From Mycetocola tolaasinivorans (lineage in GTDB: Bacteria > Actinomycetota > Actinomycetes > Actinomycetales > Microbacteriaceae): a stretch of DNA of 64,000 nt. The DNA lies in NCBI RefSeq assembly GCF_003667565.1, contig NZ_RCUX01000001.1:1-64000 (forward strand). Reading direction: 5' to 3'. The position numbers were made by a program, and so were the translations under genes. Below the pieces are notes generated by a model. That model searched no databases. It saw only the letters and a program-made list of their open reading frames with translations, and was not told the origin of the DNA. Below are positions 45,419 through 64,000 of this stretch, piece after piece (positions within the stretch are counted from its first letter, which is position 1; every line of letters starts with the position of its first letter).

Positions 45419-45447
45419 CGCGTCGCCGGTCCGGTAGCGTACAGACG

Positions 45448-45480
45448 ACGAAGCCCTCGCTCAGTGAGCGAGGGCTTCGT
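45448..45480. terminator. Bidirectional hairpin after hflX
   Basis: CGAAGCCCTCGCTC pairs with GAGCGAGGGCTTCG around a 3-nt loop, between convergent hflX and the nucleotidyltransferase gene. Confidence 0.85.
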
Positions 45481-45518
45481 CGGTGTGTGGGGTGGCGTGA
45501 GTGATGAGTGGAGGCGGG

Positions 45519-46424
45519 CTAGTGCAGTTCGTCAACCGAACGGGTGGACGACACAAAGGCGCGGGCCTGCCGCACCCCGCGCAGGGCCCGGGCGGGCCCA
45601 CGAACCCAGCGTCTCAGCAGTGCCAGCAGAAGCCGCGGAAGTGTCGGGCGGGCATGAATATCGTTCTTCAGCAGTGTTGAGGAGGTGGGGGCGATCGCCA
45701 GGCGCATGAGGTGCACCTTTTCGCGCATGGGGGCCTGCATGAGCAGGGCCATGCGTCGAGCGTTGGGGGAGGTGAGCGTGGTGCGAAGGATCCACTCCTC
45801 GCTCGCCGGGGGAGTACCCGCGGGTAGTGCGAGGCCGTAAGCCTCACGGAGGTAGGGAGCGATACACGCGAGCGCACCCACCGAGCGGGCCTGATCAACG
45901 AGTACCGTCGAATCAAACCGTGTGGCCTGCCGAACCAGGGCGCGATACTCGCTCTCCTGACGCTGCAATCCGGGGCTGCGCAGGCAGTGAAGGACCGCGA
46001 TGGTGAGCGCATCCACCAGCCCGGGGTGGGCAATGCTTCGCCCGATCATGTTCAGGTGGCTGCGACGAAAATAGAGCGCGTCAAAGACCTCCTCCGCGTC
46101 CCCCTCGAGCCCCGGAAAGCGAAAGTGTACGTCGAGATCGCAGGGCCATTCCGCATGGAAGTACGTGACCGAGTGCTGCGGGAACGCGCCGGTATCGATG
46201 TCACTGGGGCGCAACTGCCAGCCTCGACGCGCCACCTCGGTGGTGAATCGATCGAGATCGGCCGGTGAAACCAGCACGTCAACATCGGAGGAGAATCCCG
46301 TGGGACGCAGCCCGTGGGACGTGGTGCTCGCCCCCTTGATAACGAGGTAGCGAGCACCCGTGACCTCGCTGACATCGTCAACAAGGGCGTGCAAAAAGCC
46401 GAGGGCAACCGCGTGGGGAAACAT
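45519..46424 (-). CDS. Putative nucleotidyltransferase family protein
   Basis: A 301-residue protein resembling the uncharacterised nucleotidyltransferase group found in polysaccharide loci. YLVIKGASTTSHG is followed by FSSDVDVLVSP, matching the KG...SDxD pattern in which the two aspartates bind metal, and PCDLDVHFRF supplies a third acidic residue. Helical C-terminal parts are rich in Arg. The acceptor is unknown. The ATG lies 3 nt after the kinase stop, so it is the distal gene of the tatA-kinase-nucleotidyltransferase unit. Confidence 0.7.
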   Translation of the reverse strand: MFPHAVALGFLHALVDDVSEVTGARYLVIKGASTTSHGLRPTGFSSDVDVLVSPADLDRFTTEVARRGWQLRPSDIDTGAFPQHSVTYFHAEWPCDLDVHFRFPGLEGDAEEVFDALYFRRSHLNMIGRSIAHPGLVDALTIAVLHCLRSPGLQRQESEYRALVRQATRFDSTVLVDQARSVGALACIAPYLREAYGLALPAGTPPASEEWILRTTLTSPNARRMALLMQAPMREKVHLMRLAIAPTSSTLLKNDIHARPTLPRLLLALLRRWVRGPARALRGVRQARAFVSSTRSVDELH

Positions 46425-46427
46425 CGG

Positions 46428-48014
46428 CTAGTGGCCGGAACGCCGCACAGTTCGACGCGATGTCGCCTCTTCCGGGGCGGCCAGCGGGGTTGCTGCGGCG
46501 ATGGGAGTGGCGGAGTCACCCTCTACTACGGTCGATTCATCGCTCGGCTGAGCGGTCGCGGTCGTAGCCGGGGTCTCCTCATTGGCGTAGTAGGTACCGC
46601 CGTAGTACCCGTACTGGTGTGCGTCCTGTCCGCTGGTGGGAACACGGTTCAGGACCGTTCCCAACAGGTGCGCACCGCCGCGTTTGATGAGCTGCTGAGC
46701 GCGGCCGAACTGTTCATAGGTGGTGTTTCGGGCACTCGCGACCAGTACCACGCCATCGGCGGAGTTTGCGAGTACGACGGCGTCGGTGACGGGAAGTATC
46801 GGCGGTGCGTCCAGAATCACTATTGACTGCTCGCCGAGGGCGGCCAGTAGCTCCTTCATCGCTCGCGATCCGAGCAGCTCGCTGGGGTTCGGCGGGATAC
46901 GTCCGGCACCCAGGATCCAGAGCTTTTCGGAGTCCCCGCAGGGCTGGATTACCTGCTGAAGCTCCGCACGTCCGCTCAGCACATCGGTAAGACCGGCACC
47001 CTCGACCGCGTTGAAGATCTTTGACAGGGTGGGGCGGCGCAGATCGCAGTCGATGACCACGACGTTCTTGCCCGAGTTCACCGCGAGTGTTTCTGCGAGG
47101 TTCGCGCTCAGCGTGGACTTTCCCTCACCGGGGTTCGGGCTCGTGACGACAAATACTTGCGGGGGATTGTCAACGTCCACATAGGACAGGTTGGTCCGCA
47201 GTTCGCGCAGCGATTCGGCCATCGCAAAGGACGCATGACGGCTCTCCGTGGAGGTCTCAGTCAGCTGTGAGAGCAGCTGGCTTCCCTTCCGCAGGAACGG
47301 GTTCATCGGGATGGTTCCGAGCACGGAGGTACCGTAGCGCTGCTCCAGAACATCGGCCGAGCGGATGCGCCGGTCGAGGTGCTGGCGGATGACCGCATAC
47401 GCAATCGCGAGGAGCGTGCCCGTGATCGTGGCCAGAACGAGGGCGATGATCACGTTGGGGGAGACCGGGCTGTTGGGGGTTGCCGCCTTCGACACACTCA
47501 CAAATTTGGTGTTTTGAGCACCGATGACGCCGTCGTTTCCCTGAATGGCTTCGATCTGTTCGGACATCGCGGTGATCCACGCATCGGCGAGGGTGCGCGC
47601 GGAATCCCCGGTCGGCCCCTTGGCCGTGATCTCGATGAGGACGGTGTCCTGCGGCTGAAGTGCCGTGATTCGGCCCAGGAGAACCCCGGCAGACTGCTTG
47701 ACTACTCCTGCCTTTTCCACCCGCTCGGCAACCGCGAGCGAGGTCGCGACGGTTGCATAGGATGCCGCCTGCGACTTCGAGAGAGCCTCGGACGAGTACG
47801 CGTTACTCGGGTCGTTTCCACGCGGTGCCTGGACGATACCCGTGGCCTTCGCTTCAAACACCTGTGGTTGGAAGAGGGTCCACACCGCACCCGAGGCGAT
47901 GCTCAGGGCGATGATGAGGAGCGCTCCCATCCAGTAGGTGCGAATCATGCGAACGAAGTCGCGAAGACTGCGATCGTTGTCATTCACGATGTCGGGGTTT
48001 GTCTCGGCGTCCAT
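46428..48014 (-). CDS. Polysaccharide co-polymerase with bacterial tyrosine kinase domain (Wzz/BY-kinase)
   Basis: A 528-residue membrane protein. The Wzz part has transmembrane helices at about 28-50 and 187-209 around an extracytoplasmic domain. The cytoplasmic kinase has Walker A SPNPGEGKST (292-301), Walker A' VVVIDCDLRRP (318-328) and Walker B IVILDAPP near 400. The C-terminal region has a tyrosine cluster (HQYGYYGGTYY) that is the expected autophosphorylation site. It regulates chain length and export of a surface polysaccharide. The ATG at 48014 lies after CTGGAG; the upstream open frame crosses a G/C run and has no conserved residues. Confidence 0.93.
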   Translation of the reverse strand: MDAETNPDIVNDNDRSLRDFVRMIRTYWMGALLIIALSIASGAVWTLFQPQVFEAKATGIVQAPRGNDPSNAYSSEALSKSQAASYATVATSLAVAERVEKAGVVKQSAGVLLGRITALQPQDTVLIEITAKGPTGDSARTLADAWITAMSEQIEAIQGNDGVIGAQNTKFVSVSKAATPNSPVSPNVIIALVLATITGTLLAIAYAVIRQHLDRRIRSADVLEQRYGTSVLGTIPMNPFLRKGSQLLSQLTETSTESRHASFAMAESLRELRTNLSYVDVDNPPQVFVVTSPNPGEGKSTLSANLAETLAVNSGKNVVVIDCDLRRPTLSKIFNAVEGAGLTDVLSGRAELQQVIQPCGDSEKLWILGAGRIPPNPSELLGSRAMKELLAALGEQSIVILDAPPILPVTDAVVLANSADGVVLVASARNTTYEQFGRAQQLIKRGGAHLLGTVLNRVPTSGQDAHQYGYYGGTYYANEETPATTATAQPSDESTVVEGDSATPIAAATPLAAPEEATSRRTVRRSGH

Positions 48015-48048
48015 GTGGCAGCGGCTCCAGTTCTCGATTGGATACTCA

Positions 48049-48059
48049 GGGGGGGGGGG
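48049..48059. repeat. Homopolymeric G11 tract (C11 on the sense strand of the kinase gene)
   Basis: Eleven consecutive G on the plus strand lie in the 62-nt gap between tatA and the BY-kinase, about 35 nt upstream of the kinase start. Another GGGG follows after one A. Confidence 0.95.
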
Positions 48060-48076
48060 AGGGGCGGAGGGTCGGT

Positions 48077-48286
48077 TTAGGATTCGGACTTGCCGGTGGA
48101 CTCGGTGCCCTCTGCTTCGGCGTTCTGAGCGGCGTCCTTCTTGGGCTGATCGACTTCCGAACGGAAGATGCGGATCGACTGGCCGATTCCCTTTGCGAGG
48201 GCGGGCAGCTTGGTTGCACCAAACAGGAGAACCACTACGGCGAGGATGATGAGCAGGTGCCAACCACTAAAGGCGTTTCCGAGCAT
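48077..48286 (-). CDS. tatA: Twin-arginine translocase component TatA
   Basis: A 69-residue protein with the TatA pattern: a short periplasmic start, one membrane helix (HLLIILAVVVLLF), the FG motif at residues 22-23, an amphipathic helix (ATKLPALAKGIGQSIRIFRSE) and an acidic charged tail. TatA oligomers open the membrane for folded proteins carrying twin-arginine signals. The ATG at 48286 follows AAGGAG; the longer upstream reading is not TatA-like. tatC is not nearby, so this is probably an extra tatA. It faces two Tat-signal proteins directly upstream. Confidence 0.92.
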   Translation of the reverse strand: MLGNAFSGWHLLIILAVVVLLFGATKLPALAKGIGQSIRIFRSEVDQPKKDAAQNAEAEGTESTGKSES

Positions 48287-48790
48287 GTGTAATCTCCTTG
48301 TAATTTGACCCCGGGGTGGGGTGAGGCAACGTAGTTCGTGCCCATGCACAGTAAGAGACGGGGAGCCCCCCGATTCATTACGTTGATTTTGGGGATTCGT
48401 GGCGAAACGCGTATTTCCCTCGTGATACCCGAATCGCTACTCGGAAGGCTCGAAACGCTACTTGCCGCGCATTCGGCTGGTAAATGGGCGACGATCGGCA
48501 GACGATGGATGAAATGTCTGATGTCGAAAATGGCATCCACACAGGGTCTTGGGGAGACCGGGGGAGCGACTGACTGCCGAGCGAATGCTCGCGGGGTTTT
48601 CGCGCTAACGCGCGTACGCCGCGATCATTCAACCCAAGATCCGGCCACGGGGGTGGTAGTGCGGGCGGGGGGCTTATGTCGCCGAGATCAAGCTGCAATT
48701 CCAGATGGCAAGAGCACTGCAGGTCGTGTAAATGAGCGCACATACATCGCAACGGTGTCGCGCAAAACCGATGAAAGTAGATGAATCATC
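48287..48790. other. Gene-free divergent region between tatA and the first Tat substrate
   Basis: The 504 bp contain open frames on both strands, but none has a ribosome site with coding-like residues or recognisable motifs. A short GC palindrome (CGGGGAGCCCCCCG) occurs near 48358. It probably holds divergent promoters and a long 5' leader. CGAATCGCTACT (48430-48441) recurs at 52396-52407, downstream of the second Tat gene. Confidence 0.6.
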
Positions 48791-50383
48791 TTGAATGAGA
48801 CTTCAAAAGAAAGCGTCCCCGCTTCGGGGACGGATGGCCAGGGATTCGGTCTCAGCCGTCGGACCCTGGTTGCCGGTGCAGCATGGTCCGTGCCGGCGAT
48901 CGCGCTGATCAGTGCGTCCCCCGCGGCTGCCTCCTCCTCCGTCGCAACATGGGCGTTTGCCGATCAGGACCAGTGGCTGGGTGAGGTGGATCGCTGCGAT
49001 ACCATTACCGCCGGTTATGTAACGTTCACGCTACTGCGCAACGACGTTCTGCCCAAGCCCAGTCAGGAGCAGGACGTCACCGTCGAGCTCAGCACGGGTA
49101 TCTCGTTCGCGGGTGCCGCCGAGGGGCAGAGCCAGGTCCAGACCTTCCGCACCCTGGGCGGTACCATCACGCTTCCGGGAATCGATTCCTACGGATCCAC
49201 CGGTTACTACACCATCACGGCCACGTCTCAGGGGCAGACGCAGATCCTCTACATGGCCATTCAGGGTGCCGCTTCCGGAGCCGTTTACACGTTCCGTGCG
49301 GGTTCGAGCCAGCCTCTCTCGCTCGATCGGGTTGACGACTTCGATGGTATCCGCGGAGACGTGGGAGACAACGCCAACTACGTGATCGATGCCAAGGGAT
49401 ACCTCTGGTACTGGGGCTCCGCGTTTACCGCCTCCGATGGCAAAAGAATCGCCGAGTTCGGCGGAAAGTACATCGAGAATGTCACCAAGATTTCCGGCTG
49501 GGGTATGGAAACCACCGGGTACTACACCGGATGCCTGATCTACACCGCGGATAAGCGCGTGTACCGCGGTCTGGGTAACGGCCGTGGCCTGACCATCACC
49601 GAACTGACCACGTTCACCGGTGACGTCCTCGAGATCGCGGCCGTCCAGAACGCCTACTACGTCCTGACCACCGATGGCCTATGGCTCGGCGGCAGCGCAA
49701 TTCAGGGCTCCAGCAACACCGCGGCGCTGCAGGGCCCGTACGGCCCCAGCGGGGGAGCATCCAAGCTCTCGGTGTGGAGCTCTCCGGTGAGTACCATCTG
49801 GCAGACCGGTGGTGCCTTCGTGATGGCCAACGGCCAGGTCCATACCTTCAAGGCTTCCGGAGTCTCGGCTCCCACCGTGGTGAACAACATGGGTGTCGAC
49901 GGCGATATCGAGGTTCTCTACGCGAACGAAAGCTCGAACATCGTCCTCACCACCCGCGGCGTGGTCTGGGGTGCCGGTCCCGCGTTCCCCGGAAACAACT
50001 GGGCGCTTCTCGCCAACAACGCACTCACGGTCTCGGCCTGGGGCGTGAAAACCACGCGTGACTACGCTGGTGGCGCGATCCTGGTGCAGAACGGTTCGAT
50101 CATCGAGTTCTTCCGCCAGTCGGGGGACTCGCGCGCTTACGCTCAGATCGTTCCCGGCAAGCTTGCGAATATCGCGCGAGTTTTTGCGACCGACGGTAGC
50201 TACCTGGCGTTGACTTCGAGCGGTGAACTCTGGCGCTGGAACGGTAACGCCGATGCGTCCCTCAGCACGCCTATCCAGCTCAACGTGCCGGAACTGACCG
50301 ACGTCGCACACTACGGGTACCACCAGAACGGTAAGTGGTATGCCTGGGTTGTCGGTATTTCGTCCGACGCCTGCGTCTTCTAG
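48791..50383 (+). CDS. Tat-exported protein with RCC1-like repeats (paralogue 1)
   Basis: A 530-residue exported protein. The Tat signal has SRR at residues 22-24 and a hydrophobic stretch ending SPAAA|SS near residue 47. A beta-rich region of about 110 residues follows, then repeats with the pattern of RCC1-type propellers: LWYWGSAF, GLWLGG, VVWGAGPAF and GELWRWNGNAD. Cys69 (DRC), CLIY and a final DACVF are shared with the paralogue. The TTG start is chosen because it gives MNET, as in the neighbour. The protein is not LPXTG-anchored. The function is unknown. Confidence 0.82.
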   Translation: MNETSKESVPASGTDGQGFGLSRRTLVAGAAWSVPAIALISASPAAASSSVATWAFADQDQWLGEVDRCDTITAGYVTFTLLRNDVLPKPSQEQDVTVELSTGISFAGAAEGQSQVQTFRTLGGTITLPGIDSYGSTGYYTITATSQGQTQILYMAIQGAASGAVYTFRAGSSQPLSLDRVDDFDGIRGDVGDNANYVIDAKGYLWYWGSAFTASDGKRIAEFGGKYIENVTKISGWGMETTGYYTGCLIYTADKRVYRGLGNGRGLTITELTTFTGDVLEIAAVQNAYYVLTTDGLWLGGSAIQGSSNTAALQGPYGPSGGASKLSVWSSPVSTIWQTGGAFVMANGQVHTFKASGVSAPTVVNNMGVDGDIEVLYANESSNIVLTTRGVVWGAGPAFPGNNWALLANNALTVSAWGVKTTRDYAGGAILVQNGSIIEFFRQSGDSRAYAQIVPGKLANIARVFATDGSYLALTSSGELWRWNGNADASLSTPIQLNVPELTDVAHYGYHQNGKWYAWVVGISSDACVF

Positions 50384-50402
50384 TACCCCACAGCAAAGAA
50401 GT

Positions 50403-50440
50403 CTGAGGGAGGTCGCTGGCGCGGCTCCCTCAGGCTTTTT
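50403..50440 (+). terminator. Rho-independent terminator after Tat paralogue 1
   Basis: A 9-bp stem (CTGAGGGAG with CTCCCTCAG) around a 13-nt loop, followed by GCTTTTT. Confidence 0.85.
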
Positions 50441-50498
50441 CGCGCACCCGCGCACCCGCACTCCTCATAACGCACGTAATAGAACGGGCTCTCGCTCG

Positions 50499-50504
50499 TA
50501 TATA
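50499..50504 (+). promoter_or_regulatory. -10 box for Tat paralogue 2
   Basis: TATATA, 110 nt before the GTG start, is the best -10 in the 174 bp after the terminator. It implies a leader of about 100 nt, so this gene is not leaderless. Confidence 0.45.
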
Positions 50505-50614
50505 TAGGTGCAGTGTGTGTTCGGTTGGTAGCCGAAGACACGATTTTCTTGCGCTCACGCGCACGCTATGAGGCCTTACCAAATATCAGAACCAAAACGA
50601 AAGAGAACAATTCC

Positions 50615-52195
50615 GTGAACGAGACGACTATCGATAGTCCGCAAAACCCCGGGGGCGATAGCCGGGGATTCGGTCTGAGCCGACGTACCCTCGTTGCCGG
50701 TGCCGCCTGGTCGGTGCCCGCAATCGCGCTCATTAGCGCATCTCCCGCTGCAGCTACCTCAGGCGAATCCGTCTGGGAGCTGGAAACCCCCGAACCGTGG
50801 CTCGGTGTGGTTGACCGCTGTGCCACCGTGACCCCGGGGCACGTGCGGTTCTCCGTAACCGAAAACGGTACGGTTCCGAGCGAAGAGCAGACCATCACCG
50901 TGACCCTGAGCGAGGGTATTTCCTTCTCGCGCGCAGTTCCAGGACAGGAGCAGGAGCAGCAGTTCCGCACCATTGGCGGAACGATCCGTCTGCCCGGTAT
51001 TGATGCTTCCGGTACCTCCGGCTACTACTCGATTACCGCCACCGTTCGTGGTCTCACCTCGACCGTCCTGATGGGAATCGTGGGAACCGCGCCGGGCGCC
51101 GTCTTTACATTCAACACCGGTGCCAGCCAGGAGCCCTCGATGGTTCCGCACACCGAGTTCCGTGCGAAGACCGCCGCCGTGGCTCGAAATGCACACTGGG
51201 CCGTCGATGACCGTTCCATGCTGTGGTACTGGGGCCAGGCATTCGGTGGCGGAGCCAAGCGTATCGCAACTATCGACGGTGCAGTGACCGCCGTTTCCGG
51301 TTGGTCCAGTCAGCCCGGTAGCCAGTACTTCACGGGTTGCCTCGTGCTCACCGAAGACAACCGGGTGTTCCGGGGTCTGGGTACCGGTGGAAGCCTGAGC
51401 TTCACTGAGCTGACCTCGTTCAGGGGTGTTGTTGACCAGATCGTCGCCTGCGACAACGCGTACTACGTTCTGACCGATGAGGGCCTGTGGCACGGTGGTG
51501 GCGCATTCAAGGACTCCAGCAACACCGCACAGCTGGTTGGCCCGTACCGTCCGAGTGCGGGTGCAAGCAAGCTGACCGCCTGGAGTACCTACACCGACAA
51601 GTGGTACACCGGTGGTGGAATCGAGATGGCGAACGGCCAGATCAACACGTTCCGTGCAAACTCGAACAACACCATCTATTCGGCAAGCAGGACGAGTGTT
51701 CTGGGTAACGTCCACACCCTGTTCGCCACCGATACCTCCATCATCGTGATGAACGATAAGCGTGAGGTGTTTGGGGCCGGAGACGCCTTTGGTGGCCCCA
51801 ACAACCTGGTCTTCATTGCTCAGAACGCCGTTGAGGTTGCCGCGTGGGGTATTCGCTCCGGTGGAAACGAGAAGGCGTACACCGGTGGTGTCATCCTGGT
51901 TGAAAATGGTTCGATCATCGAGTTCCTCCAGGAGGACGGCAAGTCGATGAAGTCCAAGATCGTTCCCGGCGAGCTGGAAAATGTTACCCGGGTATTTGCC
52001 GCGGACGGCAGCTACCTCGCCCTCGACGCGAACGGTTCGGTATTCCGCTGGACCGGTAACGCGGACTCGACAATCACGAAGCCGAGCAAGGTTGCCGTAC
52101 CGGCGATGACGGACATCTTCCACTACGGATATCACACGCCGAACTGGTGGGCCGGTTACGTCGTCGGAATCGCTGCCGACGTCTGTACGTTCTAA
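50615..52195 (+). CDS. Tat-exported protein with RCC1-like repeats (paralogue 2)
   Basis: A 526-residue exported protein with the same architecture as its neighbour. The RR pair is at residues 23-24, and residues 18-47 are identical to those of paralogue 1. The mature region shares WLG-VDRC, LPGID, LWYWG-AF, FRGLG, NAYYVLT, SSNTA-L-GPY, GSIIEF, KIVPG and a GNAD-containing end, but many positions differ. Cys69 and the final DVCTF match. The GTG start gives MNET. A terminator and the TATATA -10 upstream suggest independent transcription of the two genes. Confidence 0.85.
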   Translation: MNETTIDSPQNPGGDSRGFGLSRRTLVAGAAWSVPAIALISASPAAATSGESVWELETPEPWLGVVDRCATVTPGHVRFSVTENGTVPSEEQTITVTLSEGISFSRAVPGQEQEQQFRTIGGTIRLPGIDASGTSGYYSITATVRGLTSTVLMGIVGTAPGAVFTFNTGASQEPSMVPHTEFRAKTAAVARNAHWAVDDRSMLWYWGQAFGGGAKRIATIDGAVTAVSGWSSQPGSQYFTGCLVLTEDNRVFRGLGTGGSLSFTELTSFRGVVDQIVACDNAYYVLTDEGLWHGGGAFKDSSNTAQLVGPYRPSAGASKLTAWSTYTDKWYTGGGIEMANGQINTFRANSNNTIYSASRTSVLGNVHTLFATDTSIIVMNDKREVFGAGDAFGGPNNLVFIAQNAVEVAAWGIRSGGNEKAYTGGVILVENGSIIEFLQEDGKSMKSKIVPGELENVTRVFAADGSYLALDANGSVFRWTGNADSTITKPSKVAVPAMTDIFHYGYHTPNWWAGYVVGIAADVCTF

Positions 52196-52201
52196 CAACT
52201 G

Positions 52202-52234
52202 AACGCCCGTGTGCGAGTGCACACGGGCGTTCTG
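52202..52234 (+). terminator. Rho-independent terminator after Tat paralogue 2
   Basis: A perfect 13-bp stem (AACGCCCGTGTGC and its complement) with the loop GAGT, followed by TCTGCTGTCTGT. Confidence 0.85.
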
Positions 52235-52938
52235 CTGTCTGTCGCGGAACGCGCTAGTTTTCGTCGCCTTCTCCTGTGAGATTGACGGGAATTGGCCTGA
52301 GTGATGGCGAAGAATGGGTGTGATTGGCCGCGTCTGTCCGGCATGATGCGTGCGGCAACGCGCGTTTCGTCGCACGAACCGCTCACGATTATTCACGAAT
52401 CGCTACTGAATCCCGCAGCGAGTTGCCGGGTGAGCGGATTGCCTCAATGATTATTCAAGACATCAGGTACCGCTCAAGCGATGCCGATGCGGGTCCGGGG
52501 GGACCCGAGGGGAAACTGGGGGACCAGTGGCCGCGGGGGCGGAAACCACCGTCCACGCTGCCGTACTCGCGGTGCAGTGCTCACTGAGCAGTGCTCACCG
52601 TAGTACCCACCGCACGCCACTCACCGCGCACCGCTCACGGAGTGTACGCAGGGCGCAGCGCAGATCGCGCTGCACTCCTGGCACTGCGTTTGTGATACCG
52701 CACTCGTGGCACCACGTAACGGCCGTCATGCCCGCATAGTCGTGGGTGTTGCCCGTGCTCCTTCACTCGTTAGATCGGGCTCGCCGTGGCTGGATCTAGG
52801 CAGCGGCCCGTGCGCCATACCCGGGCGAAATCGCCAAAATGTGACCTCACATTCAATTTACCAAACATCCGTAATTACAACCCGCGAATGCCGTCTACCC
52901 CCTGTGACGACGACTTCGGATGAAAGCCAAAACAGACT
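52235..52938. other. Gene-free region with short repeats
   Basis: About 700 bp without a supported gene. Short open frames in all frames lack ribosome sites and motifs. It includes a tandem GCAGTGCTCAC (52574-52584, 52588-52598) and a GC-rich, CAC-rich stretch around 52600-52660. The last 100 bp are more AT-rich and probably contain the promoter of the following lipoprotein gene. Confidence 0.6.
52574..52598 (+). repeat. Direct repeat GCAGTGCTCAC
   Basis: Two copies of an 11-mer separated by 3 nt; the GCTCACTGAGC at their junction is itself an inverted repeat. Confidence 0.75.
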
Positions 52939-53568
52939 ATGAATGAAACACACGGCGGGCGTGCCCGCACCGGCCTGGGTGCCATCGCTCTGGCCCTCAC
53001 ACTCGGGTTTACCCTGGCGGGTTGTACTCAGGCCACCACTACGGCCAAGCCTTCGCCTTCGGCCTCCGCTTCGGCTTCGCCGAGCTCCTCTGCCTCGACC
53101 GAGGCGGAACCCGATGCCACCGCAGATCCAGAGAGCACCGCTACCGCCGAGCCCGGCGAGGTGAAGCAGAACACCGACAAGCTCGTTGACCCGAGCAAGG
53201 CGGCGGACGTCTGCGGAGTTTTTGGCGCGCTGAGTGATCTCAACGCTCAGATCGCCGCCCTTTCGCCCGAGTCTGCACAGACCCGATTCGGTGATCTGCT
53301 CCGGTTGACCGGTGCGACCTTTGCCCGACTTGCCGAGGTGGATGACGTCACCGAGCTTCGTGCCGGATGGCAGAAGGTTGGCGAATCCGCGACCAAGGCC
53401 GGCGACTCGTTCACCGTATTCGGCGGCGAGGCGATGAACGCGACCACCCTCGAGGCCCTGGGCCAGCTGAGCATCGATTATGAAGAGGTCGTCGGGCCCC
53501 AGCTCGAGAACGTACAGAAGCGCTGTGGCGTCGATGTCGGCTCTCTGACCCCGGTGGAAAAGGAGTAG
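52939..53568 (+). CDS. Putative lipoprotein of unknown function
   Basis: A 209-residue lipoprotein. The signal peptide ends in a lipobox L-A-G-C with Cys29. A Thr/Ser/Ala/Glu-rich linker (about residues 31-75) leads to a helical domain, with a helix rich in Ala/Leu (FGALSDLNAQIAALSPESAQ) and two cysteines (ADVCGVFG, KRCGVD) that could pair. I do not recognise the family. It lies 3 nt before the next lipoprotein gene, so they are co-transcribed. The start codon again gives MNET, as in the two upstream Tat proteins. Confidence 0.75.
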   Translation: MNETHGGRARTGLGAIALALTLGFTLAGCTQATTTAKPSPSASASASPSSSASTEAEPDATADPESTATAEPGEVKQNTDKLVDPSKAADVCGVFGALSDLNAQIAALSPESAQTRFGDLLRLTGATFARLAEVDDVTELRAGWQKVGESATKAGDSFTVFGGEAMNATTLEALGQLSIDYEEVVGPQLENVQKRCGVDVGSLTPVEKE

Positions 53569-53571
53569 CGC

Positions 53572-54378
53572 GTGCGGATGACGAAGGCGCGTGCCCTTCC
53601 ACTCCTCCTGATTTCGGTACTCGCGCTCTCTGCATGCTCGGCCGATGGTCAGGATGGGCCTACCCCCTCCGCTTCACCCTCGGCGAGTGCACCGTCTACC
53701 TCTCCGGAACCGAGCGAGTCCCCCGAGACCGAGGACGCTAAGCCCTTCGGCATTCAGGGGGACGGTGCGGAGATTACCGCCGATGGCACCGCTCGATTGG
53801 CGGCCGCAAAGGAGTCCTTCGAATCCGCCGCGGGATTCACGCTGCAGGGGAGTGCCGAATCCTCCGGTGGTGCCCTGAGCTGGGAGATGACCGCTTCGGG
53901 CGATGGCTCCGACTGGACGGGAACCGTGTACCTCCCGCAGCAGGAGCTCAGGGTGCGGCACACCGAGGCCACCACCTGGGTCTCCGCATCCGAGGAATAC
54001 TGGACCCTGTTTGGCCTGCCCGAGGAACTCGCGAAGCGCGCCGGTGAGCCCGATCAGTTCGTGGTGTTTCCACGGGACGTACCGGTAGCCACCGTTTCCT
54101 TCGTGGACGTCTCGACGCTGGTCCAGGCCATCAAGATGCTGGATCCCGCGACGGCGAGCCACACACATGACGCCGCAGACGGCACGGTCGTGTTCACCGT
54201 AGAGGCCGCCGACCAGACCACGTGGCTGCAGACCTCGGCGAATCCCACTCCGCGTCTGGAGGGGCTCGCATCCCGCGCCGCGGGCAGCCTGAATGCCGTT
54301 GTCATCACCTATCTTGACTCCGCACCGACCATCGAGCTGCCGAGTTCCGATCGCGTGATCATCGCGCCCAAACCATAG
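53572..54378 (+). CDS. Putative lipoprotein, LppX/LprG-like
   Basis: A 268-residue lipoprotein. The signal peptide ends in L-S-A-C with Cys22, followed by a Ser/Pro-rich linker. The mature domain has alternating strands (FTLQGSAESSGGALSWEM, WTGTVYLPQQELRVRHTEATTWVS) and ends in IELPSSDRVIIAP, which resembles the LppX/LprG/LolA-like lipid-binding fold in pattern only. The GTG start is 6 nt after AGGAG that overlaps the upstream stop; an ATG 6 nt later would be 12 nt from it. It is co-transcribed with the preceding lipoprotein gene. Confidence 0.65.
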   Translation: MRMTKARALPLLLISVLALSACSADGQDGPTPSASPSASAPSTSPEPSESPETEDAKPFGIQGDGAEITADGTARLAAAKESFESAAGFTLQGSAESSGGALSWEMTASGDGSDWTGTVYLPQQELRVRHTEATTWVSASEEYWTLFGLPEELAKRAGEPDQFVVFPRDVPVATVSFVDVSTLVQAIKMLDPATASHTHDAADGTVVFTVEAADQTTWLQTSANPTPRLEGLASRAAGSLNAVVITYLDSAPTIELPSSDRVIIAPKP

Positions 54379-54491
54379 ATTTTCTAGCTTTCTCGACCGC
54401 TCATCACACGTGAACGGGAGAGAAAATCGGGGCTTTTGCCCCAGGTCGTTGTTTACGGCCGACCATCCCTTCAATAAGGACAAAAATCACA
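54379..54491 (+). promoter_or_regulatory. Leader region of the secreted Pro-rich protein gene
   Basis: The 113-bp gap has GATTTTCT near its 5' end and AGAAAATC about 40 nt later as an inverted repeat, and the small hairpin GGGGCTTTTGCCCC (about 54430-54443). These could be the 3' end of the lipoprotein transcript or a structured leader. AAGGA lies about 10 nt before the next ATG. Confidence 0.4.
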
Positions 54492-55925
54492 ATGAAGAAG
54501 AATACTCGATTTGGCTCTGCCGTCTCGCGTAGCGTTGCCCTGGCTCTCGCCGGCACCGTTATCGCGGGTGCCGGCATCAGCGCAGCCGCGGCTCCGGCCA
54601 TGGCAGCCCCGGCAAAGGCTGACACCTCGGACCTCGGCCCCGCCTACAGCGGTGCTGTCCGTACCTATGGTGTCTACGCTGCAGCAGACGTGCTTTTCGG
54701 TGTGGTGTCGGCTCGTGCCAACATCTCCGAGGCCGTTGCCGTTGCAGACAGCCACGGCCTGAAGCCCTACGCCGGCGTTGGCGCTGACATGTACGGTGTT
54801 CCCTACCGTGTATGGAGCGACGCGAACTCGCGTTCCTACGCTCGTTCGGCCCCCCTGGGTATCGGTGCACTCGGTCTGCCGATCATCCCGATCCAGTCCG
54901 AATCGAAGTCGGGCGTGCTCGGCGATGGCGGACGCAAGGCCAGCCCCGTTGGCGAGCTGTCGCTCGGCGCGATCGGTGCGCTGAACCTGCTCTCCGGCGA
55001 TGCTGACTCCTCGTGGCGCGTCGCCCAGAAGGGTGGCGTTCTCGCCGAGGCCAACCAGACCATCGGTACCCTCGACCTGCTGCCCAAGTCGACCCTTCCC
55101 GAGCTGCCCCTGATTCTGCCCCTCGTTGGTGCAGACCTCGGTCAGACCTCCGCAAAGGTTGAGCTCACCACCCAGGCCCTGACCGGCAAGGAAGACCAGC
55201 TGCAGGTCAACTCGACCGCTACCTGGACCTTCGCTGACGTTCAGATCCTCGGTGACCTGCTCCGCGCTTCGTGGAGTGGTTCGCGCGACACCGTTCCGAC
55301 CCTGACCGCTTCGGCTTCGGGTCTGTTCGGTCAGGCCAAGGTTGACATCCCCAACATGCCGATGATGCAGATTCGTGTTCTCGGTATTCCGGTTACCATC
55401 ACCCCGAACGCCACCATCGACCTGGACGCGATCCTGCCCTACGAGGTTTCCCGCATCATCAGCGGTTCGATCTCCTACGGTGGAATCACCAACGTCTACG
55501 AGGACCCGTACGGTACCGAGGCTCGTGGAACCATGAACGGTCTGAACGCTTCGCTGCGCATCCTCAAGGTGCTCCCGTGGCTGCCGCCGCTGGGTAACGC
55601 CGAGCTCGGCTTCATGCGTGCCGACGTTTCCGCCAAGATGCAGGCCGGTGGCGTGACCACCCAGGACATGCAGGCCATCGTTGACGGCTACCCCGTTGAC
55701 GGCACCAACGCCGGTTCGGGCGTTGTCCCGCGCAAGACCGAGGCCCCGGCAGACCTGCCGTTCCTCGCTCCGAAGTCCTCGACCCCGGCAGTAACCACCC
55801 CGGCACCGAAGCCCTCGGCTCCGGCAGTCACCCCGTCGGCTCCCGCAAAGACCCCGGCACCGGCGTTCACCCCGCCGCCCCTGAACGGTAAGAACACCGT
55901 AAAGGCTCCGACCGTCAAGAAGTAA
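54492..55925 (+). CDS. Secreted protein with a Pro/Ala-rich C-terminal tail, unknown function
   Basis: A 477-residue exported protein. A Sec signal peptide (AVSRSVALALAGTVIAGAG, cleavage near AMA|AP, residue 39) precedes a large beta-rich domain with repeated strands ending in TIDLDAILPYEVSRIISG and a C-terminal tail of about 60 residues of PAV/TPAPKPSAPA repeats. No LPXTG or lipobox is visible. Codon use is biased to GGT, GTT, TCG and AAG-type choices unlike its neighbours, which suggests high expression. A strong terminator follows. I do not recognise the domain. Confidence 0.78.
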   Translation: MKKNTRFGSAVSRSVALALAGTVIAGAGISAAAAPAMAAPAKADTSDLGPAYSGAVRTYGVYAAADVLFGVVSARANISEAVAVADSHGLKPYAGVGADMYGVPYRVWSDANSRSYARSAPLGIGALGLPIIPIQSESKSGVLGDGGRKASPVGELSLGAIGALNLLSGDADSSWRVAQKGGVLAEANQTIGTLDLLPKSTLPELPLILPLVGADLGQTSAKVELTTQALTGKEDQLQVNSTATWTFADVQILGDLLRASWSGSRDTVPTLTASASGLFGQAKVDIPNMPMMQIRVLGIPVTITPNATIDLDAILPYEVSRIISGSISYGGITNVYEDPYGTEARGTMNGLNASLRILKVLPWLPPLGNAELGFMRADVSAKMQAGGVTTQDMQAIVDGYPVDGTNAGSGVVPRKTEAPADLPFLAPKSSTPAVTTPAPKPSAPAVTPSAPAKTPAPAFTPPPLNGKNTVKAPTVKK

Positions 55926-55939
55926 TCTCGGTCTGAACG

Positions 55940-55979
55940 AACCGTGGGATAGTCACCTCGACTATCCCACGGTTTTTTT
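55940..55979 (+). terminator. Rho-independent terminator after the secreted protein gene
   Basis: A 15-bp stem (AACCGTGGGATAGTC and its complement) with the loop ACCTC, followed by TTTTT. It is one of the strongest in the window. Confidence 0.95.
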
Positions 55980-56079
55980 GTTCCCAAATGCGCTAAGACC
56001 CCTAATGCATCAACCAGCTCTTCGTCTATTCCCCTGTATGCGAGATTTGTGCGTGAATGCACGACGAAGGTGTCTGGCA

Positions 56080-56556
56080 TTGGTGGAGAAGAATACGGCG
56101 GTGAGATTCCGTGACGACATCCAGGGTCTACGTGCGGTAGCCGTGATCGTGGTTGTGCTGGATCATCTGTGTGCCGCACTGCTCTCGGTTAACTGGCAGC
56201 CCTGGGCATTTGTCACGACGTGTGGGGTGGTTGCGCTCTCGCGGCTCTGGGCGTTCGCAGAAACCACGTCAAGTTTAGGTATCGCATTATTTTCGACCGT
56301 ATCGCGCGCGTGGGAACTCGGGATTGGGGCGGCACTTGCCGGGCTTCTTGCCCGGAAGCCCATCCGTATCGGAGCCGTCGTTTCTTCGGTGCTGGTACTG
56401 CAACGAATCGGGACAGTGCCCACCATTCATTGGTGACACCCTGGTGAAGACAGACCTGACCCCTCCGACGCTGGCACACGCCGAGAAGCTGACCCCCCCA
56501 TCCGCGATGAATTTGTGCGGGCTGGTGTACTGAGTGACACCCCAGCCGAGGGCTGA
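56080..56556 (+). pseudogene. Decayed SGNH-type acyltransferase gene
   Basis: Fragments of the same family as the intact gene at 59205-61403 can be read in order: RDDIQGLRAVAVIVVVLDHL (N-terminus), then a jump to LFSTVSRAWELGIGAALAGLLARKP (middle), then in another frame WYCNESGQCPPFIGDTLVK and TDLTPPTLAHAEKL, and after a shift in a run of C, IRDEFVRAGVLSDTPAEG with a stop. So it has two large internal deletions and at least two frameshifts. The D-x-x-H motif before the end is TDLTPPT, with the histidine lost. Confidence 0.85.
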
Positions 56557-56565
56557 GTAGTACCG

Positions 56566-56611
56566 AACGGGCGAGGGGCAGTCGATGTAAATCGACTGCC
56601 CCTCGCCCGTT
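56566..56611. terminator. Bidirectional hairpin after the acyltransferase pseudogene
   Basis: A 21-bp perfect stem with the loop GTAA (arms begin AACGGGCGAGGGGC), between the pseudogene and the convergent araC-type gene. Confidence 0.9.
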
Positions 56612-56654
56612 GTCGTTGTGGTCGGCGCGTGGTGCACAGAACCGAACCTGGCCG

Positions 56655-57518
56655 TTATGAAGCGCGGATGTGTTTGAGCATTGTGCGGACACTGGTGAAT
56701 CCTGCGGCCCGTGCGGTATCGGGGGAGGGATGATGGCCGCTGTGGAGGAGCTGGTGTGCGGCCTGGGTGCGGGCGTGGGCGATTTCGCGGAGTGCAGAGG
56801 TGCCCTCATCGGCCATGATTTTGCGCAGGTACTGGGGGGAGATATTGAGGGCGCGACTGAGGGATTGGACGGTGAATTCGGGGTTGTGAGCGCGGGTCTG
56901 GATGAGGCGTTTGGCTCGGTGGAAGAGGGCGCGTTGGGCGGTGGATTGGGAGGAGGGTGATCCAAATCCCGGGCGTGAGGTGGCCGCGAGGAGGAGCTGT
57001 TCGATGGCGTAGCGCAGGTGTGGTTCGCTGCCGGGTTCGAGGTCGGCATCTGAGGCAATGACGGACATTGCAAGGGCGCAGAGGGCGCTCACGGCGAGGG
57101 AGTCTTTGCCGACCTTTGTGAAGGCGGTTTGAAGGTCTTTGCCCGGGGTATCGAGGGTGATTTCGAGATAGGCGGGGCTGCCGCTTGCGCGGAGGGTGAG
57201 TTCGCCTTCGCCCTCGCAGAGGAGCAGTTCGCGTTCGCGGAGGGTTTGTTTGAGCGCACCGTTTTGGACGGTGAGCTCGCCATCAACGACGAGGTAGAGC
57301 GTGCGCTGTGTGGAGGGGGAGTGTTTGCGGAGTTCTGCGCTTGAGTGGCAGATACGGGTGAGGGTGCAGCCTTCGAAGGTCAGGGTGTCGGCGAAGACCT
57401 GCATGTGGAGTCGTGGGGGGTGGATGGAGAACCCCTGGTTGGTGAGCCATTTGGCGGCGTCCTCTCCCGCGGCCGCGATGTCGCGTGCGCGGGAGAGGCA
57501 GGTGGTGTGGGTGTCCAC
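56655..57518 (-). CDS. AraC family transcriptional regulator
   Basis: A 287-residue regulator. The C-terminal AraC domain has HNPEFTVQSLSRALNISPQYL and RKIMADEG...REIAHARTQAAHQLLHSGHH, with the second helix-turn-helix in DTARAAGFTSVRTMLKHIR. The N-terminal ~150 residues form a sensing domain with a beta-rich part (TLYLVVDGELTVQNG) like a cupin. The GTG start is preceded by AAGGGAAG. It lies upstream of a polymerase gene on the same strand and could regulate it or the divergent acyltransferase. Confidence 0.85.
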   Translation of the reverse strand: MDTHTTCLSRARDIAAAGEDAAKWLTNQGFSIHPPRLHMQVFADTLTFEGCTLTRICHSSAELRKHSPSTQRTLYLVVDGELTVQNGALKQTLRERELLLCEGEGELTLRASGSPAYLEITLDTPGKDLQTAFTKVGKDSLAVSALCALAMSVIASDADLEPGSEPHLRYAIEQLLLAATSRPGFGSPSSQSTAQRALFHRAKRLIQTRAHNPEFTVQSLSRALNISPQYLRKIMADEGTSALREIAHARTQAAHQLLHSGHHPSPDTARAAGFTSVRTMLKHIRAS

Positions 57519-57576
57519 GTTTCTTCCCTTTCCCGAGTTTTGTTGTTATGACGTAGACGGTGGGAGGGGGATACGG

Positions 57577-58857
57577 TTACGGGGTCTGGCTCGCGAGGGC
57601 GCGAGAGCGGGAGGCGGACGTGCGACGAGACCTGTTCGCCCGATCGGTTTTGGGCAGGGTGAGACTGAACACCATGAGCATTCCGCCAAAGAACCAGACG
57701 ACAATGTCAAACGAGAAAAACATGGTGACGCTCACCACGACCAGGGCCTTACCCAGAGAATCGGCGCGGATAAAGATGACAACGCAGGTGATCGCGAGAA
57801 GCAATAGCCCGATTACCCCCATCGTGCCCAGAACATAGACCACGAAGTTGTCCACCACTTTGAGGCCAAAGCTCATGGGGATCAGGCCACGGTCATACAG
57901 GCTCACCTCGGTGCCCCACCCACTGCCCCAGAGCATCTCTCCGGTCTCGCGGGCGAGAAGTGCGTCGACCGATCCGAGCGAGTTCAGCCGGTGTGTCCAA
58001 GACCCGGAGTCAAGAAGATCGGTGACGAGACGCGAGACGTTGACCGACTGGAGATACACCACGATCGCGAGGCTCGCAATCAAGATGATGTTTCGGAACC
58101 AGGACGTGAGGTGGGAACGCATGAGGGTGTGCACCAGAATTCCGGTGAGACAGGCGAGTACCGCGCTCCGAGTACCGGAAAGGAGTAAACCGGCAGCGAT
58201 GACCATGAGCAGAGCGACCCGGGGTCCCCGGCGCAACCCGGCGGCGGCCCCATTCCAGGCGATCACGCCGACTACCGCCATGAAGTAGCCCATGACCAGC
58301 GGGTGACCGAAGGTGCCCTGGTCACGAACGATACCGTCGATGAAGGGGTTTTCACGCATGAGACCGCCGCGGTAGCCCCAGAGCGGGACGAACCTAAAGA
58401 CGAACTCTAATGCGGCGAGGAAGACCTCGAGGCAGGCCAGTATGAGAATTCCGCGCAGAACCAGACGAACCTCGCGTCGAGACAGGGCCGTTACCGTCAC
58501 TCCGAGCAGCAGCAGCAGACCAAAATACAGGCCAACAACCTCGGCGCCGATACCACGCGAGATGAGCGCGCTGAAGGCCGCCAGCGTCAGCCAGATCACC
58601 AGCAACAGGCTGCCAGCGTGCCAGCCCATTCGGAGGCCGCCTCGCGCGGCTCCGATCACAAGCAGCGCCATGAGGAGCAGCCCGACCGGGCCCCAGACGG
58701 GCGCAGGAACACTGTTGTTGATCACGATGGCGCCGGCGATGAGTGAGATTGTGACGGCCCATCCCTTCGCGGTTGAGGCGGGCACAACGATCGCCACAAA
58801 GAGAAGGAGGAGGATCCCGACGACGCCGCCGAGCAGAAGAACGGGCAGTGACATCAT
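57577..58857 (-). CDS. O-antigen ligase/polymerase-like membrane protein
   Basis: A 426-residue protein with about 11 hydrophobic helices and one large extracytoplasmic loop near residues 205-290. The loop and its flanks have RDQGTFGHPLVMGYFMAVV and GLLLSGTRSAVLACLTGI, which match the Wzy/WaaL pattern (conserved Gly, Thr and SGTRSA-type Arg). It would polymerise or ligate a lipid-linked oligosaccharide. It is transcribed toward the araC gene and diverges from the acyltransferase gene across 347 bp. Confidence 0.82.
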   Translation of the reverse strand: MMSLPVLLLGGVVGILLLLFVAIVVPASTAKGWAVTISLIAGAIVINNSVPAPVWGPVGLLLMALLVIGAARGGLRMGWHAGSLLLVIWLTLAAFSALISRGIGAEVVGLYFGLLLLLGVTVTALSRREVRLVLRGILILACLEVFLAALEFVFRFVPLWGYRGGLMRENPFIDGIVRDQGTFGHPLVMGYFMAVVGVIAWNGAAAGLRRGPRVALLMVIAAGLLLSGTRSAVLACLTGILVHTLMRSHLTSWFRNIILIASLAIVVYLQSVNVSRLVTDLLDSGSWTHRLNSLGSVDALLARETGEMLWGSGWGTEVSLYDRGLIPMSFGLKVVDNFVVYVLGTMGVIGLLLLAITCVVIFIRADSLGKALVVVSVTMFFSFDIVVWFFGGMLMVFSLTLPKTDRANRSRRTSASRSRALASQTP

Positions 58858-59204
58858 GTTAGGCCTCGCATTCGTGATGCATGAGAGCGCAGGATGTACG
58901 CACCGGGTGGCGCACGCTTAACCCTGAAAATAGCCCATTACTGTCTCTTGCCACGGAAATTTCCCGCCTCTCGTCTGGTATCGATCTTCACCGGCTTGCC
59001 CCGCCCCGGCACCGCGGGGAGAAAACTATCCCCGGCCGACGCGGTCGACGCCCATCTGATCGGGCGTCTTTCGGTCTTTACTCATTGTCGCCCTGGCCAA
59101 ACGGGGGAGTTGTAGCCCAGGTGATCGGCGAGACGGAGTGAAAAAAGGGGTGAAATACGGACAGACCATATCTGTCGTAATGAAATAGAGGTCGATTCGT
59201 CCGT
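58858..59204. other. Divergent intergenic region with a terminator-like hairpin
   Basis: No gene is supported in this 347-bp region. A hairpin with arms GACGCCC (59047-59053) and GGGCGTC (59062-59068) followed by TTTCGGTCTTT lies 137 nt before the acyltransferase start and has the form of a factor-independent terminator. Confidence 0.55.
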
Positions 59205-61403: not shown

Positions 61404-61424
61404 GGAGTTCACCGCGCCGCCGCC

Positions 61425-61475
61425 AAGACGTATCGCCCGGACCCGCAACAGCGGATCCGGGCGATACGTCTTTCT
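61425..61475. terminator. Bidirectional hairpin between the acyltransferase and glycosyltransferase genes
   Basis: AAGACGTATCGCCCGG pairs with CCGGGCGATACGTCTT around a 16-nt loop, followed by T-rich sequence on the plus strand. Confidence 0.9.
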
Positions 61476-61481
61476 CGGAGG

Positions 61482-63566: not shown

Positions 63567-63567
63567 G

Positions 63568-64000
63568 CTAATCCTTTTTACGAGAGCTTAGTGCGCCACG
63601 GATGGCGATGATCTGGACGGTGAGGACGGTGACCTCGGAGATGAGTGCCCCGATCAGGGCACCGGCGGCACCAAACAGCGAGGCACCGATCAGGATCGTC
63701 GGAACTCCGACGACCAGGCCGCTCGCGGCGCTCACGGTGAGCGCGCGCATTCGGCCGAGGGCGGGCAACATGATGCCACCGGTGGTGCGGGAAATACAGG
63801 TGGTGAGAATGATGAATCCACACACCACGGCAAACGCGGGTTCAACCGTCGCGACCCCCGAGAACAGAACGTGTGAGAGCCACGGCGCAAACAGCGCAAA
63901 CAGTGTCCCGGCGACGATTCCGAAGCCGGTGTTCACCGCGATCGCGAGGAAGCTGCGACGTACGCGCTCATCACGCTGGTTCTTCCCCACCCAGGACTGG
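63568..64000 (-). CDS. Polysaccharide flippase (Wzx/MATE-like), C-terminal part
   Basis: This is the C-terminal part of a membrane flippase; the gene continues past the window end. About 145 residues are visible, with four hydrophobic helices (AIAVNTGFGIVAGTLFALFAPW; FAVVCGFIILTTCIS; ALTVSAASGLVVGVPTILIG; AGALIGALISEVTVLTVQII). The pattern and position next to a glycosyltransferase fit an oligosaccharide flippase of the PST/Wzx type. The tail ends in RKKD. It is co-transcribed with the glycosyltransferase gene downstream. Confidence 0.8.
   Translation of the reverse strand, partial: QSWVGKNQRDERVRRSFLAIAVNTGFGIVAGTLFALFAPWLSHVLFSGVATVEPAFAVVCGFIILTTCISRTTGGIMLPALGRMRALTVSAASGLVVGVPTILIGASLFGAAGALIGALISEVTVLTVQIIAIRGALSSRKKD

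Follow-up and report, generated by a model that had tools for sequence, protein, structure and literature searches.

Bacteria may have several twin-arginine translocation (Tat) translocases that serve particular substrates, e.g., TatAdCd of B. subtilis with PhoD; SipW and TasA of Bacillus pair a dedicated signal peptidase with secreted matrix proteins, by way of another signal type and export route. PEP-CTERM proteins are defined by a C-terminal PEP motif, a membrane helix and a basic tail. The PEP-CTERM/EpsH system has been described as a short sorting signal on differing proteins, sporadic in distribution and matching an exopolysaccharide locus by genome profile, with no actinomycete example found at the time (PMC1569441). 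For lasso peptides, one report describes the HPr-kinase-like proteins PadeK and PsmK as phosphorylating the C-terminal Ser, and the nucleotidyltransferase PsmN as adding hexoses on the phosphate (PMC9266682), and another describes PqqD-type B1 proteins that bind the leader peptides (PMC7533575). The locus analysed here lies in a 64,000-nucleotide stretch (the window; C13:1-64000 of genome G000) of the 3.44 Mb genome of Mycetocola tolaasinivorans (Microbacteriaceae), where a tatA gene, tatA2, is divergent from the genes of two paralogous Tat-signal proteins, A and B. The locus is a polysaccharide island carrying its own Tat translocase (tatA2, tatC2, tatB2). A and B belong to a class characterized by a shared N-terminal Tat signal on largely unrelated proteins, and this class has a strong genomic association with polysaccharide loci that encode an HPr-kinase-like (HprK-like) protein and PqqD domains. 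In the open-access literature searched we found no description of this combination.

A polysaccharide island with its own Tat genes

The central features in the window are listed below; bit scores are from profile searches, the signal profile being a hidden Markov model (HMM) described further on.

45419..64000, no strand: the portion, within the window, of a ~32.5 kb island flanked by hflX and ogt-lexA (gene order in relatives, G+C)
45519..46424, minus: nucleotidyltransferase-like NTP_transf_5 gene, last of the three in the tatA2-wzz-NTP5 run and separated by 3 bp from the stop codon of the Wzz/BY-kinase gene (PF14907 33.1 bits, cut-off 31.2)
46428..48014, minus: Wzz/BY-kinase fusion (polysaccharide co-polymerase and tyrosine autokinase), ATG at 48014 (TIGR01007 164.9 bits, cut-off 108.05)
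48077..48286, minus: tatA2, 69 aa, head of the run with the Wzz/BY-kinase and NTP5 genes (PF02416 57.9 bits, cut-off 21; TIGR01411 60.1 bits, cut-off 53.9)
48287..48790, no strand: divergent intergenic region between tatA2 and gene A (read from the sequence)
48791..50383, plus: protein A, Tat signal class, predicted C-terminal beta-propeller (signal HMM 52.1 bits; model and fold search)
48848..48958, plus: Tat signal of A, RR-x5-AAWxxP...PAAAAS class (coordinates of the signal HMM match)
50615..52195, plus: protein B, paralogue of A with the same signal, GTG start at 50615 (52% identity to A)
50672..50779, plus: Tat signal of B (signal HMM 59.3 bits)

A preliminary description, made from the letters of the window, had reported a tatA gene divergent from two large Tat-signal paralogues in a polysaccharide setting, and all three elements are borne out: tatA2 is over the cut-off of both TatA families, A and B are identical at 30 of 30 positions of the signal segment and 236 of 474 of the mature part (52% overall), and the Wzz/BY-kinase is joined further along by a polyprenyl glycosylphosphotransferase (PGT, TIGR03025 361.8 bits). 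A genome search found no third copy of A/B. The likely start of tatA2 is the ATG at 48286, with AAGGAG just 5' of it as read by eye, which would give the 69 aa listed rather than the 90-aa open reading frame (ORF). Between tatA2 and the Wzz/BY-kinase gene, the plus strand at 48049-48064 reads 11 G, A, 4 G, a possible slippage tract.

The same description took tatA2 for a lone accessory copy, and this reading is ruled out by the tatC and tatB-like genes found in the same island beyond position 64000. The gene tatC2 (C13:65793-66647), whose TatC match at C13:65895-66533 begins ~1.9 kb beyond the window end, scores 187.8 bits with PF00902 (cut-off 25.1) and 155.7 with TIGR00945 (cut-off 132.7). 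The TatB-like gene tatB2 (C13:70973-71482) is over the cut-off of PF02416 (27.2 bits, cut-off 21) and below that of TIGR01410 (33.9, cut-off 56.5), a model that also misses the genome's other TatB (42.2 vs 56.5) and is a poor judge here. Both island genes are 18-23 kb from tatA2 and apart from the other tatA-tatC pair on C5 and the other tatB on C19. The genome has two TatC genes, tatC2 and C5:87968-88600, the latter with a tatA just before it (C5:87709); the C19 tatB adjoins an Mrp-like gene. Going by actinobacterial gene order, we take the C5 and C19 genes to be the housekeeping set, and the genes ahead of the C5 tatA-tatC pair are presumably pafB and pafC, for which NCBIfam gave no match at E 1e-10. 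A third tatA (G000:C19:247910-248173; L013 4911-5174) ends an apparent ABC operon for sugar transport; the binding protein encoded there carries an RR signal of lipoprotein type (roles assigned by eye).

Each island Tat gene stands in a tight run with other island genes. On the minus strand, tatA2 is followed by the Wzz/BY-kinase and NTP_transf_5 genes, and tatC2 overlaps a family 2 glycosyltransferase (GT2) gene that is followed by a GT4 gene; on the plus strand, a PqqD gene overlaps the HprK-like kinase gene, after which come a LuxR-type STAND regulator and tatB2, with the PGT and a WecG/TagA-type glycosyltransferase 3' of this run.

In G000, hflX ends at 45418 and ogt begins ~32.5 kb further on, at C13:77936 (gene names by NCBIfam). 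In two genomes of the same genus, G098 and G160 (L264, L265), hflX, 96% identical to that of the window, is followed after ~137 bp by ogt and lexA, with no island between; in a third, G017, hflX and lexA are ~3 kb apart with other genes between them. Searches found neither A/B nor the kinase, the signal class or a second TatC in any of the three. The G+C of 45419-78512 is 0.638, against 0.669 in the left flank and 0.680 in the right. We found no 12-mer common to the island ends in the stretches compared and no tRNA gene in the window. The island was probably gained horizontally rather than lost in relatives. That tatA2 belongs with A, B and the polysaccharide genes, as had been proposed, is supported by their lying in one island that is missing from two same-genus genomes and by its place at the head of the Wzz/BY-kinase-NTP_transf_5 run. 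Toward the right end of the island, outside the window, lie two large LuxR-type regulators with GerE domains and an extracytoplasmic function (ECF) sigma factor (C13:68320-70941, 74396-76870 and 77143-77832).

A Tat signal shared by differing proteins

The signal of A and B has RR, five residues, AAW, P at +3 and +12, and AAS near its end, and keeps an ordinary SRRxVVK-like Tat motif. A search of 219 Microbacteriaceae genomes with A and B matched 20, their own included; G045, G171, G073 and G188 have full-length relatives, and the remaining 15 genomes were matched N-terminally only, around the Tat signal. The signal HMM was built from 38-residue segments that had to have RR, W and P to be chosen, and some of which lie beside kinase genes, hence counts made with it are partly circular, whereas those made with A and B alone are not. 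A and B are the only carriers that it detected in their genome, and both lie inside the island.

The HMM gave 115 ORFs of at least 25 bits, from which 36 that departed from a simple RR...W pattern were dropped; 71 of the 79 left had distinct mature parts. These 71 fell into 36 clusters (E 1e-3, 40% cover), so the signal is common to the class while its passengers mostly differ. In 64 distinct sequences chosen only for RR and W, though found with an HMM trained on P, the P at +3 is present in 64 and that at +12 in 63. Of nine class members scanned, two matched the choice-of-anchor G family, and one genome encodes at least 34 signal-class proteins. The best score in 36 control loci flanking TatC genes was 7.8 bits, some of these loci being from the signal-positive G165. 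Loose-pattern signal tags at kinase loci of the family were mostly due to chance and were not counted. At L213, L161, G245 (C16:73863-85843) and G330 (C3), several signal-class genes stand in a row beside the kinase.

Association with HprK/PqqD loci

The HprK-like protein was matched in 21 of the 219 family genomes. With the A/B query, 18 genomes had both signal and kinase, two the signal only, three the kinase only and 196 neither. With the signal HMM the figures were 20, three (G085, G165, G199), one and 195 (Fisher test, 3e-24), the kinase-only genome being G173, whose match is weak (20 bits) and probably not a true kinase. A sample of 297 genomes of the order had 60 with the signal and 58 with a strong kinase, i.e., one over a line of 100 bits set after a gap from 105.7 to 57.2 bits had been seen; 53 genomes had both, seven the signal only, five the kinase only and 232 neither (Fisher test, 8e-45). 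The two samples share some genomes, G000 included, and when G000 is left out the values are 3e-23 (family) and 4e-44 (order). As Fisher values ignore shared ancestry, labels were shuffled within genera as a control (43 genomes, 12 genera), and the observed concordance of 39 of 43 was reached 27 times in 200000 shuffles.

Gene neighbourhoods were surveyed at 80 named loci, the best 80 of 225 kinase relatives, found through the kinase in a scan of genome contigs. They span Subtercola, Microbacterium, Agromyces, Rathayibacter, Pseudoclavibacter, Herbiconiux, Arthrobacter, Pseudarthrobacter and others, and overlap the family genome set (L184 in G203, L215 in G093). Several are shorter than 20 kb, so the following counts are lower bounds, and the neighbour HMMs were themselves refined by iteration on these loci. 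A signal gene lay within 10 kb of the kinase at 59 of the 80, a Wzz/BY-kinase at 71, NTP_transf_5 at 55, signal peptidase I at 39 (TIGR02227 110.8 bits, cut-off 47, at the one locus tested), a separate PqqD at 32 and a glycosylphosphotransferase at 30. The nearest signal gene was at most 1 kb from the kinase in 37 of the 59 loci. L232, filed as Stenotrophomonas maltophilia P13, has a Microbacterium-like kinase locus and is probably contamination.

Predicted folds of the kinase and of protein A

The kinase of G000 scores below the cut-off of TIGR04352 (27.2 bits, cut-off 200), a family matched by 28 of 37 relatives at E 1e-3. The protein modelled was a Subtercola relative (37 rows, mean predicted local distance difference test (pLDDT) 88) rather than that of G000 itself. 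Searched with Foldseek, this model matched phosphoenolpyruvate carboxykinase (PEPCK) at E 4e-5 and HPr kinase/phosphatase chains at E 7e-4 to 7e-3, with template modelling (TM) scores of at most 0.5, and a second aligner gave PEPCK with Z 14.2, a root-mean-square deviation of 4.3 and 246 aligned residues. H106, the P-loop K129, D145 and E146 are invariant. By this model the kinase has the HPr kinase/PEPCK fold, with a P-loop, a conserved His and an acidic pair. When its profile was compared with the sequences of solved structures, the top matches were P-loops of ABC transporters, and the fold search was the more informative. The separate PqqD of the island is over the cut-off of PF05402 (35.1 bits, cut-off 23.4); the C-terminus of the G000 kinase resembles PqqD at 19.6 bits, under that cut-off, and 16 of the 37 relatives match PqqD at E 0.01.

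A and B had been called RCC1-like, and here sequence and fold give different answers. Membership by sequence is rejected (PF25390, 14.6 bits for A with a cut-off of 150, and nothing for B). The fold has partial support from a two-row AlphaFold model of A (mean pLDDT 56), for which RCC1-like propellers come first with Foldseek (E 1e-9, TM up to 0.5). A second aligner placed WD40 (Z about 19) and lectin (Z about 16) propellers on top, about equally ranked. In the model, pLDDT averaged over stretches of 10 residues is mostly 67-89, in places 53-61, across residues 191-500, and below 40 in 1-180 and 501-530. The usable part, residues 191-500, is probably a beta-propeller, which may or may not be kin to RCC1.

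Extra Tat genes in relatives

Extra Tat genes were looked for at the 80 named kinase loci and in the 21 family kinase genomes. TatA and TatC genes together occur within 10 kb of the kinase at two of the 80 loci, both of Herbiconiux. Among the family genomes, G011 and G093 have tatA-tatC at the locus and G205 has tatA alone, all three being Herbiconiux. The tatA of G011, G205 and of Herbiconiux sp. VKM Ac-1786 is immediately preceded by a signal peptidase I gene, which in G093 is a few kb off. At such loci Herbiconiux combines tatA-tatC, signal-class genes and signal peptidase I. G070, which has a TatB-like ORF beside the kinase, was left out of this count, as it has one TatC and the ORF may be its sole TatB.

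In our TatC tree, the Herbiconiux locus TatC falls in the starred clade with the housekeeping-type TatC of Herbiconiux and copies of G026 and G060. A single origin for TatC2 and the Herbiconiux locus TatC was rejected, a common clade having p 0.0067 in the approximately unbiased (AU) test; TatC2 is a long branch of uncertain exact place, and long branches can bias this test. The Tat genes were thus recruited separately to this island and to the Herbiconiux locus, and two separate recruitments argue for a functional link. Nine loci of other Microbacteriaceae (L076, L087, L092, L099, L107, L109, L115, L117, L119) carry a different tatA-tatC-tatB module, mostly of a separate TatC clade, with no kinase or Wzz match in the stretch fetched.

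Other features of the island

The remaining in-window genes are as follows.

52939..53568, plus: lipoprotein-like gene, lipobox-like LAGC by eye (no Pfam or NCBIfam family over cut-off)
53572..54378, plus: lipoprotein-like gene, LSAC by eye (no family over cut-off)
54492..55925, plus: secreted-looking protein, 477 aa, N-terminal signal-like segment by eye (no family match)
56655..57518, minus: AraC-type regulator-like gene (PF12833 31.8 bits, slightly below the cut-off of 33.6)
57577..58857, minus: polytopic membrane protein, polymerase/ligase-like by appearance only, hydrophobic pattern by eye (no family match)
59205..61403, plus: acyltransferase-SGNH fusion (PF01757 104.6 bits, PF19040 90.3 bits)
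61482..63566, minus: GT4-type glycosyltransferase with two matched stretches, in the run with the GT2 gene and tatC2 (PF13692 104.4 bits)
63568..64000 in the window, running on to C13:65796, minus: GT2 glycosyltransferase, its start overlapping the tatC2 stop in ATGA (PF00535 70.3 bits)

The 54492-55925 product, near A and B, has by eye the look of a choice-of-anchor G protein.

Function of the island and its signal-class proteins

We favour, and consider rather likely, a reading in which the island has its own Tat set (Tat2) with A and B as its most likely cargo, and in which class members are folded, perhaps modified, Tat-exported matrix proteins laid down alongside the polysaccharide. Class members would fold in the cytoplasm, where the HprK/PqqD enzyme together with NTP_transf_5 may, by analogy with the lasso peptide enzymes, phosphorylate and glycosylate them. 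The Tat route, in this island presumably Tat2 for A and B, would export the folded proteins, a signal peptidase would cut after AxA, and the products would end up at the surface or in the matrix, in assembly with the polysaccharide. Were the enzyme trio to act on class proteins, modification would take place in the cytoplasm and Tat would be the route for folded proteins.

Co-occurrence of tatA, the Wzz/BY-kinase and such proteins in relatives, to which the preliminary description had looked for support, mostly fails as a general combination, with A/B, the kinase and a second TatC missing from the three same-genus genomes and extra Tat genes rare at the kinase loci; the strong co-occurrence is that of the signal class with HprK/PqqD polysaccharide loci.

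Several observations weigh against the reading favoured here. Extra Tat genes are present at only two of the 80 named kinase loci; among the 21 family kinase genomes, they are at the locus only in G000, G011, G093 and G205. Full-length relatives of A/B occur in G045, G073, G171 and G188 with one TatC each, showing that proteins of this kind can do without a second Tat. The signal class is only slightly overrepresented in genomes with several TatC (7 of 26, p 0.01; the 26 include G009, whose two identical matches may stem from an overlap in the assembly, and G124, whose matches are partial), the extra TatC of G060 and G178 lie away from the locus, and the four of G153, on other short contigs, cannot be judged. 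In the order, five genomes have the kinase without the signal and seven the reverse; at 21 of the 80 named loci, no signal protein is encoded in the 10 kb on either side of the kinase; signal peptidase I was not found in this island; and no database match indicates modification of any class protein.

The alternatives bear on different parts of the proposal. Concerning modification only, and compatible with export of A and B by Tat2, we think it quite possible that the kinase, PqqD and NTP_transf_5 act on a small peptide, a lipid or the polysaccharide itself, and that the signal-class proteins are matrix proteins with no tie to these enzymes beyond co-inheritance. Lasso peptides are known to be tailored by enzymes of all three kinds (PMC9266682, PMC7533575), and kinase and signal genes are not always neighbours; set against this are the very tight co-occurrence of the two at genome level and the many loci where they lie within 1 kb of each other. 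As to export, A and B may instead leave by way of the C5 tatA-tatC pair with the C19 tatB, in which case the island Tat would add capacity or serve other cargo. Most of the kinase and signal loci examined do without an extra Tat, relatives of A/B occur with one TatC, and the motif of their signal is of the ordinary Tat kind, all of which fit this explanation. We nevertheless find it doubtful, as both class proteins of the genome share an island with tatA2, tatC2 and tatB2, and Herbiconiux independently recruited Tat genes to a locus of this type.

That the Tat genes of the island are mere passengers, unrelated to A and B and brought close by the chance of island assembly, would suit their scatter over ~23 kb rather than in one operon, and the family does include extra TatABC modules of another clade where no such locus is present. 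It is nonetheless improbable in view of the tight run that each Tat gene forms with island genes and of the Herbiconiux recruitment, which again sits beside signal-class genes. We give scarcely any weight to the idea of a lone accessory tatA that would assist the other Tat set with A and B: tatA2 is indeed divergent from A/B, and G205 has a tatA without tatC at such a locus, but here tatC2 and a tatB-like gene are in the same island.

Beyond the preferred reading of an island exporting A and B by its own Tat, we can tentatively picture, as a rather unlikely whole, a sorting and modification system of the Actinomycetales in which PqqD domains would recognize the Tat signal, the HprK-like kinase would phosphorylate and NTP_transf_5 phospho-glycosylate the protein, Tat, sometimes private, would export it, a private signal peptidase would trim it, and it would be linked to exopolysaccharide, the protein-sugar bond having been primed before export. 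If the proposals made here are right, a mostly unannotated protein class gains a common label and partner enzymes, modification before export would be the reason for Tat use, and the island would offer a natural private Tat translocase with candidate cargo, useful for studying how Tat systems tell substrates apart.

Comparison with known systems

As with TatAdCd and PhoD of B. subtilis, the genes of an additional Tat set lie close to those of its presumed substrates; unlike that case, the TatA, TatB-like and TatC genes are dispersed in a polysaccharide island and the presumed substrates have a special class of signal. SipW-TasA differs in signal type and export route, and no signal peptidase was found in this island. 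With lasso peptide tailoring, the locus shares the same three enzyme types, an HprK-like kinase, a nucleotidyltransferase and a PqqD-type recognition element, and the kinase has its His, P-loop Lys and acidic pair in the order of the His-Lys-Asp-Asp motif of the lasso kinases. It differs from these in its C-terminal PqqD-like domain, in an acidic pair that is Asp-Glu, and in its neighbours, which are large Tat-signal proteins and polysaccharide genes.

Membership in the PEP-CTERM/exosortase system itself was rejected. Exosortase (PF09721) was over cut-off in none of 23 genomes, that of M. tolaasinivorans included, with one sub-threshold match in G060 (19.5 vs 25.7 bits); among the control genomes it was matched only in M. 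jannaschii. The C-termini of A (SSDACVF) and B (AADVCTF) do not, by eye, have the PEP-CTERM tail. The signal here is N-terminal and of Tat type rather than C-terminal; as in PEP-CTERM/EpsH, the signal class matches a polysaccharide locus by genome profile. PEP-CTERM/EpsH is the closest conceptual relative, and if the proposed system is real, it would be an actinobacterial counterpart, built on Tat, of the way in which PEP-CTERM/exosortase matches secreted proteins to exopolysaccharide.

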